NCBI GenBank assembly: GCA_001304215.1
Contig: LJVB01000024.1
Coordinates: 1 to 42,744, forward strand
From: Acidithiobacillales bacterium SM1_46
GTDB taxonomy: Bacteria; Pseudomonadota; Gammaproteobacteria; Acidiferrobacterales; Sulfurifustaceae
DNA: 42,744 nt
Direction of reading: 5' to 3'
Shown: positions 26,659-32,786 of the stretch, piece by piece
How the letters are laid out: each line of letters starts with the position of its first letter
Numbering within the stretch: position 1 is the first letter of the stretch
The notes under the pieces: model-generated
What the model was told of the DNA's origin: nothing
The model's database searches: none
The model's input: only the letters and a program-made list of their open reading frames with translations
Position numbers and translations under genes: made by a program

Positions 26659-27942
26659 TCAGCCCCAGGTGTCTGCCGTGATGCTGGCATACCAGCCGAA
26701 GGCGTACTTGGCTTCGTCGGCGCGGAACCCCGCCGATGCATCTTTCGGACTCACGCCACCTTCGATCTGCACGATCCCCTTTTCCGTGACGCGGTAGACG
26801 CCCGCCACCGAGATACCATAGTTCGGCGATACCAGGCTGTAGCAGGTGTTCACGTAGGAAGCATCCGCAATTTCCTCGCCGCGCAAACTCGACACGATGG
26901 CCGCGGCACAGATCTTTCCCTCGCTGTTGGCGGCGAAGCCCGATTTCGGTAGTGCGCCGGCGATCGATGCGTCACCGATAACGTGAATGCCCGGAAGCTT
27001 GGTGGACTCGAACGTCTTCGGGTTCACCGGGCACCAGCCCTTTTCATCGGCGAGCCCGGTCTTGAGCGCGATCTGGCCCGCCGTTTGCGGCGGAATCACG
27101 TTCACGACACTTGCCTTGTATTTCTCCAGTTCGGCATCGACCGTCATGGTCTTGGCGTTGACCGACTTCACCTTGCCCCCCTTGGAGCCGGGCACCCATT
27201 CGATCATGTCGCCATACAGTTCCTTCCACCCGGCCATGAACAATCCTTGCTTGGAGAACTTGTCCTTCGGATCGAGGATAATCACTTTCGAGCGCGGCTT
27301 ATTTGCCTTGAGATAGTGCGCCACCATGCTGGCACGCTCGTACGGTCCAGGCGGGCAGCGGAACGGATTGGGCGGGGCGACCATCACGAACAGCCCGCCG
27401 TCCTTCATCTGTTCAAGCTGCTTGCGCAGCAAGAGCGTCTGCGGTCCCGCCTTCCAGGCATGTGGCATCACCTGCGAGGCCTGTTCGCTATAACCCTCGA
27501 TCGCCCCCCACTTGAAGTCGATGCCCGGCGACAGGACGAGGCGATCGTACTTGAAGTGCTTGCCGCTCTTCAGCATGAGCGTCTTCTTGGCCGGATCGAT
27601 CGACGTCACCGTGTCATGAACAACATTGACCCCATGATTCTTCTGCAGGGAGTCATAACTGTGGGTAATCGACTCGATCTTGCGGATGCCACCAATCACG
27701 TAATTGCTGAACGGGCACGTAACGAATTGACTGCTAGGCTCGATCAGGGTGACGGTTATTCCGGGATTGCCACTGCGCAGGTACTTGGCGCAGGTCGCGC
27801 CACCGAATCCGCCACCAACGACCACGACGTGCGGACCGCCGGGACCGATCTGTGCGCGGGCGATGCCCGCGAATCCCAACGTGCCGGCAGCCGCGCCCGC
27901 TCCGGAGAGCTTCAGGAAATCTCTGCGTGAAAGCTTGCTCAT
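26659..27942 (-). CDS. fccB: Flavocytochrome c sulfide dehydrogenase, flavoprotein subunit
   Basis: Periplasmic FAD enzyme oxidising sulfide to sulfur or polysulfide and passing electrons to the FccA haem; 427 aa. It has a twin-arginine signal (SRRDFLKLSGAGAAAG), so it is probably exported folded with FAD bound. The dinucleotide fold is HVVVVGGGFGGATCAKYL. Cys76 in FVTCPFSN aligns with the cysteine that covalently holds FAD in Allochromatium. Cys196 (FRCPPG) and Cys367 (VNTCYS) match the redox-active disulfide by position. HVIGDASIAGALPKSGFAAN is the C-terminal FAD motif. The gene follows fccA by 11 bp and ends before a strong terminator. It could also be called soxF. Confidence 0.95.
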   Translation of the reverse strand: MSKLSRRDFLKLSGAGAAAGTLGFAGIARAQIGPGGPHVVVVGGGFGGATCAKYLRSGNPGITVTLIEPSSQFVTCPFSNYVIGGIRKIESITHSYDSLQKNHGVNVVHDTVTSIDPAKKTLMLKSGKHFKYDRLVLSPGIDFKWGAIEGYSEQASQVMPHAWKAGPQTLLLRKQLEQMKDGGLFVMVAPPNPFRCPPGPYERASMVAHYLKANKPRSKVIILDPKDKFSKQGLFMAGWKELYGDMIEWVPGSKGGKVKSVNAKTMTVDAELEKYKASVVNVIPPQTAGQIALKTGLADEKGWCPVNPKTFESTKLPGIHVIGDASIAGALPKSGFAANSEGKICAAAIVSSLRGEEIADASYVNTCYSLVSPNYGISVAGVYRVTEKGIVQIEGGVSPKDASAGFRADEAKYAFGWYASITADTWG

Positions 27943-27953
27943 GGCGCCCCCCC

Positions 27954-28310
27954 TTACCTTTTGTTGAGGCTGGCGATGTACATGGCCAGCGCGTTGATTT
28001 CAGCGGCGGTGTAGCCTTTCGCATGACGACCCATGACCGTCCCGGGACGCTGCCCGGTCTTGAACTGTTCCATGTACTCGGCGATGTTCGCCGCGGTCAG
28101 GTTCTGCAGGCTCGGGATGCTGCCGGGACTCACGCCATTCGGGCCATGGCAGGCGAAGCAATTGTTAGCCATGTTGGCTGCGGCTCCCGCGGATATCGGT
28201 TTTGCGGGTGGCGCCGCCGGTTTTGTCGGTTCCGATGGGGTCGTGGCGCAGCCCCCTGCCACAACGCCGGCCGCAAGCGGCAGCCAGATGAATTTCGGCA
28301 TTAGTCGCAT
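27954..28310 (-). CDS. fccA: Monohaem cytochrome c subunit of sulfide dehydrogenase, predicted lipoprotein
   Basis: 118-aa class I c-type cytochrome. The haem is attached through Cys51-Cys54-His55 (NCFACHGPNGV) and the likely axial Met is Met93 (TVMGRHAKGYT); DNA directly downstream encodes fccB. The N-terminus is a lipoprotein signal with Cys21 (VVAGGCATT), followed by a Pro/Ala/Lys linker, so the cytochrome is probably tethered to a membrane facing the periplasm. Allochromatium FccA is a soluble dihaem protein of about 21 kDa, so this is the shorter, monohaem type. The start ATG 28310 has GAGGAG upstream. The FNR-like promoter region lies just upstream. Confidence 0.92.
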   Translation of the reverse strand: MRLMPKFIWLPLAAGVVAGGCATTPSEPTKPAAPPAKPISAGAAANMANNCFACHGPNGVSPGSIPSLQNLTAANIAEYMEQFKTGQRPGTVMGRHAKGYTAAEINALAMYIASLNKR

Positions 28311-28394
28311 GGTTCATCTCTCCTCAATCGTTATGGTGGAATGACTGCAAGCGTCCGGCCAAGCTGCCGGCGTGCCCGCAGGGTCAACCCTCTA

Positions 28395-28436
28395 TTTCTA
28401 CGGTTCCCGCGTCGGAAAGGTATTGATCCAGGTCAA
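28395..28436 (-). promoter_or_regulatory. FNR/CRP-family box and promoter for fccAB
   Basis: On the minus strand TTGAC-CTGG-ATCAA (28436-28423) differs from the FNR consensus TTGAT-N4-ATCAA at one base. A -10-like TAGAAA (28400-28395) would give a start near 28388, placing the box centre at -41.5, exactly the class II activator position. The predicted leader to fccA is about 78 nt. The match is seen in the sequence; regulation by an FNR/Anr/Dnr-type protein is inferred. Confidence 0.55.
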
Positions 28437-28458
28437 TTGTGCAACTGCCGCGCGGGAC

Positions 28459-28484
28459 TGCCAAGCTTGGCATGCGCCGGCGCA
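28459..28484. promoter_or_regulatory. Two abutting perfect palindromes upstream of the fccAB promoter
   Basis: TGCCAAGCTTGGCA (28459-28472) is immediately followed by TGCGCCGGCGCA (28473-28484), both perfect with no loop. They lie between the end of the kinase gene and the FNR-like box, about 71-96 bp upstream of the predicted fccA start site. True palindromes fit operators for dimeric regulators better than an intrinsic terminator, and no T-run follows. Confidence 0.4.
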
Positions 28485-28509
28485 CGGCAAAATCCATGGA
28501 CGCAATGCG

Positions 28510-29397
28510 CTAGCCGATCTCCGCCAACAGACGATCGATCATGGTCTCGGCCTGGGAGGCATAGCCGCCCCCGAACAGGTTGAAGTGATTCAACACGTGA
28601 TAGAGGTTGTAAAGCACCTTTCGCGTGGCGTATCCCTCGTCGAGGGGCCACGCTTCCGCATAGGCGGCGTAGAAGCGCGGGCCGAAACCGCCGAACAATT
28701 GGGTCATCGCAATATCGGCTTCGCGGTCGCCGTAATAGACCGCGGGGTCAAAGATGACCGGCTCACCTTGCTCGGTCACGGCGAAGTTGCCACCCCACAG
28801 GTCGCCATGCAGTAGGGATGGCACGGGCCGATAGCTACCGAATAGCGCCGGGAAACTGTCCTGCAGCCGCTCGCCCTTGCCAATGAGCGTGCCGGGCGCG
28901 CCATTGCGCGCGGCAAGATCCAGCTGAAAGCCAAGGCGAGCCTCGCGCCAGAACTTGAACCAGTCGTGATGAAGCGGATTGGGTTGCGCGGTGGAGCCGA
29001 TTGTGTTGTCGCGCACCCACCCGAAGCTCGGGCGGGTGGCACGGTGCAAGGCGGCGAGTTCGCGGCCCAGGCGTTCAAGCGCCGCGACGCTGGCTGATCG
29101 CAACGACAGGTACTCGAGCACGAGGAAGGCCGAGCCATCCGCTTGGCCCGCGCACAGGGGCGCGGGTACACGCACCGCGCCGGCGCCCGCCAACTCGGCG
29201 AGACCCGCCGCTTCGGCCTGGAACATGTCCAGGCGCGCAGCGCTATTCAATTTGACGAAATAGCTTCCCTCCCGTCCCGCAATGACCAACGCCGAATTGA
29301 TGCAGCCGCCGCCGACATCCTCGATTCCCGTCGGGGCAAACGGGCGACCGGTGGCGCGGGCGATTTCCCGGCAAATCGTCTCGATTTTGCTGTCCAT
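28510..29397 (-). CDS. Fructosamine-kinase family protein
   Basis: 295-aa cytoplasmic kinase-fold protein from ATG 29397 (MDSKIETICREIARATG); the 29-residue extension in the track is unlikely. It contains VGGGCINSALVI, a lysine in GSYFVKLN (nucleotide binding), the catalytic loop LLHGDLWGGNFA and the metal-binding motif VIFDPAVYYGDREADIAM, all typical of bacterial fructosamine kinases (YniA-like). Family members phosphorylate ketosamines or ribulosamines and start repair of glycated proteins; the exact substrate is not shown. It is divergent from the GGDEF-EAL gene and about 200 bp upstream of fccA on the same strand. Confidence 0.92.
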   Translation of the reverse strand: MDSKIETICREIARATGRPFAPTGIEDVGGGCINSALVIAGREGSYFVKLNSAARLDMFQAEAAGLAELAGAGAVRVPAPLCAGQADGSAFLVLEYLSLRSASVAALERLGRELAALHRATRPSFGWVRDNTIGSTAQPNPLHHDWFKFWREARLGFQLDLAARNGAPGTLIGKGERLQDSFPALFGSYRPVPSLLHGDLWGGNFAVTEQGEPVIFDPAVYYGDREADIAMTQLFGGFGPRFYAAYAEAWPLDEGYATRKVLYNLYHVLNHFNLFGGGYASQAETMIDRLLAEIG

Positions 29398-29578
29398 AAG
29401 GCTATTCCCGGCCACTTTAGTGTCTTTGGGACTAAATGGGGAGCGGCGCCGTCCACGGCACGCGCTCCTCATACACGCGGTCAACGCCCGGTACGTGGCA
29501 CCGGAATTGCAGAACTATAACCAAACGGCCTCTACCGCGGCGTTACCGGCGCGCCGGCAGGCCGACCCGTCCAACACC

Positions 29579-32069: not shown

Positions 32070-32786
32070 ATGGCTATGGCGGCGGAGAATGGGCAGGTCG
32101 TGATCATTACGGGTGCGGTGGGCAACCTGGGAAACGCCGTCACCGAGGCTTTTAGCGGCGCGCGGCGCGTGCTCGTGGACCGATCGGCGCAGCGTCTGGC
32201 GCAGCGTTACCCGCCGCTGGTGAACGCAGCTGATACGCTGCTGATCGGGGACGTGAATCTCGCCGATGAGAAAGACGTGCGGCGCATCGCAGCGATGACG
32301 CTAGAGCGATTTGGACGGATCGACGCACTGCTGAATACCGTCGGCGGGTTTACCGGCGGCAAGCCTGTGCATGAGGAGGATCTTGCGGTCTGGGACCGCA
32401 TGTTCGAGATCAATGTGCGCACCGCGTTGCTGAGTTGTCGTGCCGTCATCCCGCAAATGATTCGCCAGGGAACGGGCGCCATCGTCAACGTCGCCGCTCG
32501 AGCGGCGCTGGCCGGGGTGGGCGGGCTCGGGGCCTATTGCGCGGCGAAGAGCGGGGTTATCCGTCTCACCGAGAGCATCGCGCAAGAACTGAAGCCGCAC
32601 GGCGTTCGGGCCAACTGCGTGCTGCCGGGCACCATCGATACCCCGCAAAATCGCAAGGACATGCCGGAAGCGGATTTCAGCAAGTGGGTGGCGCCCGCAG
32701 CTATTGCCCGCGTGATGGCATTCCTGGCCTCGGATGCGGCGGGTGCCATTACCGGTGCCGCAGTACCGGCCTACGGTCGTAGCTAG
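32070..32786 (+). CDS. Short-chain dehydrogenase/reductase lacking the usual catalytic Ser
   Basis: 238-aa cytoplasmic Rossmann-fold protein. The nucleotide motif is VIITGAVGNLGNAV and the catalytic Tyr/Lys lie in GAYCAAKSGVIRLTES. Thirteen residues before the Tyr, where most SDRs have Ser (INISS), this protein has Ala (VNVAARAALAG). NTVGGF replaces the common NNAG motif. The C-terminus MAFLASDAAGAITGAAVPAYG is typical of SDRs. ATG 32070 or ATG 32076 could be the start; AGGTGA lies just upstream. The substrate is unknown. It follows the GGDEF-EAL gene by 121 bp. Confidence 0.88.
   Translation: MAMAAENGQVVIITGAVGNLGNAVTEAFSGARRVLVDRSAQRLAQRYPPLVNAADTLLIGDVNLADEKDVRRIAAMTLERFGRIDALLNTVGGFTGGKPVHEEDLAVWDRMFEINVRTALLSCRAVIPQMIRQGTGAIVNVAARAALAGVGGLGAYCAAKSGVIRLTESIAQELKPHGVRANCVLPGTIDTPQNRKDMPEADFSKWVAPAAIARVMAFLASDAAGAITGAAVPAYGRS

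Follow-up and report, generated by a model that had tools for sequence, protein, structure and literature searches.

A conserved FNR-type box and a predicted class II promoter before the fccAB sulfide dehydrogenase operon of an Acidithiobacillales bacterium

The class II promoters of FNR in Escherichia coli and of Anr and Dnr in Pseudomonas are the closest described counterparts of the locus considered here, which carries the same TTGAY-N4-RTCAA box at the same -41.5 spacing, measured in our case from a predicted start. As in those systems, an FNR with four cysteines is encoded and the predicted regulon includes hemN, UbiT and NosR-like genes; unlike them, the site described here, predicted from sequence, precedes an operon for sulfide dehydrogenase. 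The FnrL/Dnr network of Dinoroseobacter shibae is similar in having several FNR/Dnr paralogues and almost identical boxes that precede respiratory genes at -41.5 or close to it (PMC5398030). However, D. shibae is an alphaproteobacterial heterotroph and, in the portion of that account used here, the genes preceded by boxes are nap, nir, nor, nos and haem genes and do not include fccAB (PMC5398030). In Allochromatium vinosum grown on pyrite, fccAB is likewise strongly regulated by growth condition, but there it responds to the electron donor and FNR is not mentioned (PMC11267869). The role of fccAB is debated, as A. vinosum mutants in these genes still oxidise sulfide (PMC11267869). A search of open-access literature returned nothing on control of fccAB by FNR. 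To our knowledge, the regulation of this operon has been little studied. The switch we predict is of an ordinary, well-known kind, with fccAB as a new target.

The window, by which we mean the whole stretch of DNA analysed, comprises 42.7 kb (62% GC) of contig LJVB01000024.1 from Acidithiobacillales bacterium SM1_46. A FccB protein with two diagnostic FCSD domains, encoded next to a cytochrome c, identifies a flavocytochrome c sulfide dehydrogenase operon, and FccA bears a lipoprotein-like signal (VVAGGC, judged by eye). The intergenic region on the minus strand (28310-28510) separates fccA from the stop codon (28510-28512) of a fructosamine-kinase-like gene, both genes being read leftward. 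In the direction of transcription it contains the 12-bp palindrome, the 14-bp palindrome, the box, 22 nt, TAGAAA, the leader and the fccA ATG. The features are as follows.

26659..27942, minus strand: fccB, flavocytochrome c sulfide dehydrogenase flavoprotein (FCSD_central 2.6e-53, FCSD-flav_bind 9.5e-27, TAT_signal)
27954..28310, minus strand: fccA, 118-residue cytochrome c with one CxxCH (Cytochrom_C PF00034 and open reading frame)
28388, minus strand: predicted transcription start, placed from the spacing of box and -10 element
28395..28400, minus strand: predicted -10 element TAGAAA
28423..28436, minus strand: FNR/Anr/Dnr-type box TTGACCTGGATCAA, centre 28429.5 (from the sequence and from relatives with a box at similar positions)
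28436..28464, minus strand: candidate sigma-70-like promoter TTGGCA-17-CACAAT, abutting the box
28459..28472, no strand assigned: 14-bp perfect palindrome TGCCAAGCTTGGCA
28473..28484, no strand assigned: 12-bp perfect palindrome TGCGCCGGCGCA, abutting TGCCAAGCTTGGCA
28510..29484, minus strand (open reading frame limits, the true start probably lying further inside): fructosamine-kinase-like gene, upstream neighbour of fccA (PF03881, 4.3e-107)

The box differs from TTGAT-N4-ATCAA at one base and is the only exact TTGAY-N4-RTCAA in the window. An initial annotation had proposed a near-FNR box with one mismatch, placed 41.5 bp from a start predicted by TAGAAA, and both proposals are borne out: TTGACCTGGATCAA occupies 28436..28423 of the minus strand, 22 nt from the -10 element, and its centre lies at -41.5 from the predicted start, the class II position. 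The TAGAAA hexamer is missing the conserved final T, and a leader of ~78 nt would connect the predicted start to the fccA ATG at 28310. We estimate a probability of about 0.72 that positions 28423-28436 are a genuine FNR-family operator, forming the core of a class II fccAB promoter that FNR activates at low oxygen. What the sequences themselves show is the box, its conserved position, the class II spacing across the genome and the encoded regulators, and together these lend good support to an FNR/Anr/Dnr-type site before fccAB.

To place the box in an evolutionary context, we gathered fccAB loci from two sources and searched the 350 bp before fccA in the 81 that had non-identical upstream regions. 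The exact TTGAY-N4-RTCAA pattern occurred at 11 of the 81 loci and a box with at most one mismatch at 17, set against 0.0009 and 0.033 boxes per region, respectively, in shuffled upstream regions. Box density was 0.36/kb before fccA and 0.013/kb in 522 kb of flanking sequence, a roughly 27-fold enrichment. With the window's own locus omitted, an exact box was present at 10 of 80 loci, where the background rate per 350 bp is 0.0047; the binomial P is 6e-12, and it becomes 5e-6 on the assumption that 2% of all promoters carry a box. Both values are optimistic owing to shared descent among the loci, which does account for some of the conservation. Within the window's family, five genomes have an exact box (G000, G001, G003, G011 and G014) and two a box with one mismatch (G007 and G015). 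These boxes (TTGACCTGGATCAA, TTGATATACGTCAA, TTGATATACGTCAG, TTGACTTATATCAA, TTGATCCATATCTA, TTGACCCAAGTCAA and TTGACCTAGGTCAA) occupy similar positions, with centres between 119 and about 148 bp upstream of the start codon, which in G014 and G015 was set 27 nt further upstream than the scripted one, beside the ribosome-binding site. Their half sites are constant while their spacers differ, the pattern that selection on a protein site gives.

The conservation in relatives on which the initial annotation had staked its prediction is thus partial, as no box precedes fccA in four close relatives (G002, G004, G013 and G016) that have intact fccAB as well as FNR. Most of the distant loci are also without one, so control of fccAB through the box is not universal, and no extra exact box was found at the second fccAB copies of G002 and G007 or at the partial G019 locus. 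The missing boxes in the four family members and in most distant loci are what would be expected if the fccA box were a chance match and the operon were constitutive or governed by another, sulfide-responsive factor. A second observation in the same direction comes from one genus (g5), in which GAGTTAGAT, with CTTG upstream, is strictly conserved before fccA at six loci (L104, L106, L107, L108, L109 and L111). This element lies further upstream than the box, is common to three species with a box and three without, and looks like a shared sigma-70 promoter; box control therefore appears to have been acquired or lost while a background promoter stayed the same. The local enrichment of the exact box before fccA, the similar positions of the family boxes and the class II spacing, which is genome-wide and recurs at the fccA site, all argue against a chance match, and we consider it quite improbable.

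The wider genome provides further context for an FNR-family operator at fccA. TTGAY-N4-RTCAA occurs at about 51 sites, compared with 1 for a reversed-pattern control, and the asymmetric form alone at 23, again compared with 1. Because this control leaves codon-usage effects in place, we examined where the boxes lie: relative to genes called with a simple longest-ORF procedure, most lie upstream of a gene start, no more than a few hundred bases from it, and only a minority are deep within genes. Adjoining genes encode HemN, UbiT, a NosR-like protein, a class I fumarase, a hibernation-factor-like protein, a rhodanese and GroEL, and several of them are classical FNR/Anr targets. We scored each position downstream of the box as a -10 element for the 33 other box-gene pairs of this genome. 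The score was highest 22 nt from the box (mean 3.61), whereas the maxima of randomly rotated profiles averaged 2.48 and never exceeded 3.09 in 5000 trials. The fccA hexamer TAGAAA joins a series of -10 elements at boxes in the genome that includes TAGAAT, TAGATT, TAGTAT and TAGTTT. As this peak coincides with the 22-nt gap at fccA, the 41.5-bp spacing is a rule in this organism and no coincidence picked out by eye. At the promoters of fcc homologues, a gap of 22 nt gave no stronger -10 signal than gaps of 25 or 28.

Several other boxed loci may be recorded here. On contig C9 of the same genome (G000), an exact FNR-type box lies near the head of an operon (L162:6649-9182) encoding a ba3-like oxidase subunit I, whose best PDB matches are the Thermus ba3 oxidase, and a CuA-like subunit; the same contig carries a NosR-like gene with a further FNR-type box. 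On contig C133, the GroEL gene (L143, around 2526) has an FNR-type box 82 bp upstream and is itself situated just downstream of a cytochrome cd1 nitrite reductase gene.

The genome encodes five proteins with a Crp/Fnr-type HTH. L081 is an FNR, scoring 255 bits against the curated NF008365 cut-off of 228, with cysteines at positions 19, 22, 28 and 121, and it closely matches a solved FNR, while L084 is Dnr-like (best PDB match DNR 3dkw, 9.1e-47). A second FNR-like regulator (L082:480-1175, contig C49) has cysteines at positions 4, 6, 11 and 14, plus 109, in place of the usual C-x2-C-x5-C, possibly reflecting a different cluster arrangement. All three share E..SR in the recognition helix, so each could bind the box. 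It is conceivable that the main activator at fccA is the NO-sensing, haem-type Dnr, or the second FNR-like protein, making the response one to NO or nitrite and not directly to oxygen. The encoded Dnr orthologue and the cytochrome cd1 nitrite reductase gene speak for this, as does the published description of Anr and Dnr boxes as indistinguishable (PMC5398030), such that the box alone cannot tell one from the other. The nosZ profile PF18764 had no match in the genome, and controls were likewise without a match. FNR-like matches were present in 20 of the 21 genomes checked. Two complete genomes with a box before fccA (G026 and G075) encode an FNR orthologue (62% and 57%, respectively), whereas a close orthologue of Dnr is absent from both. 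This makes FNR the more likely shared regulator and leaves Dnr or the second FNR-like protein a rather unlikely main activator.

In the FNR-activated model, a [4Fe-4S] FNR dimer would bind the box at -41.5 when oxygen is low and touch RNA polymerase, driving fccAB transcription from about 28388, with the flavocytochrome c sulfide dehydrogenase induced jointly with the micro-oxic and nitrite-respiration regulon. Dnr, in response to NO, may act at this box too, as may the second FNR-like protein. That FNR binds and activates at fccA, where transcription starts and which signal is sensed are all predictions of this model. Where the initial annotation had proposed that fccAB responds to low oxygen or nitric oxide through an FNR/Anr/Dnr-type activator, the site itself is upheld by the relatives, the class II spacing and the encoded regulators; activation, and low oxygen in preference to NO as the signal, we infer. 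From a conserved FNR box one would expect sulfide oxidation to be induced alongside low-oxygen and nitrite respiration, and the box offers a testable reason for keeping fccAB, as an enzyme for times of oxygen shortage or of growth with nitrite as the acceptor. The boxes listed above also provide a first predicted FNR regulon for the window's family, which consists mostly of uncultivated sulfur oxidisers.

A different arrangement of the promoter is suggested by TTGGCA-17-CACAAT, which matches 9 of 12 consensus bases (0.1 such matches being expected in the region), with its -35 within the 14-bp palindrome and its -10 ending at the edge of the box. Here, the sigma-70-like promoter would give basal fccAB expression from a start inside the box, and FNR would repress it, opening or not opening the downstream class II promoter. 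Neither the palindrome nor the -35 is conserved in relatives, and the other boxes of this genome and those of fcc homologues show no preferred promoter position just upstream, making such a switch improbable. A broader proposal, which we advance tentatively, is that fccAB belongs to the core FNR regulon of several gammaproteobacterial sulfur-oxidiser lineages, in which sister species differ through gain and loss of the box, and that FNR might here also silence the overlapping sigma-70 promoter. If the first part were true, periplasmic sulfide oxidation would be tuned to oxygen shortage or nitrite respiration; if the last were, the fccA locus would be a promoter switch.

The two abutting perfect palindromes that the initial annotation had described, of 14 and 12 bp, are indeed present at 28459-28484. 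Its suggestion that they bind a second dimeric regulator finds no support, as their frequency fits chance: the window contains 26 palindromes of at least 12 bp (19 expected) and 5 of at least 14 bp (5.6 expected), although an abutting pair is somewhat rare (0.05 expected per window). Neither was found upstream of fccA in the closest relatives. A search for the same palindromes elsewhere in the genome, which the annotation had recommended, found the exact 14-mer only once, with one-mismatch copies at two other places. It is most likely that the palindromes beside the box are incidental, TGCCAAGCTTGGCA probably not being an operator and TGCGCCGGCGCA probably having arisen by chance. We also considered them as an intrinsic terminator of the upstream gene and rejected this, as no terminator and no T run were found. 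The longest perfect palindrome in the window lies elsewhere, a 16-bp sequence (CGCCGCTCGAGCGGCG) at 32492-32507 in a gene-dense stretch, and is within chance expectation.
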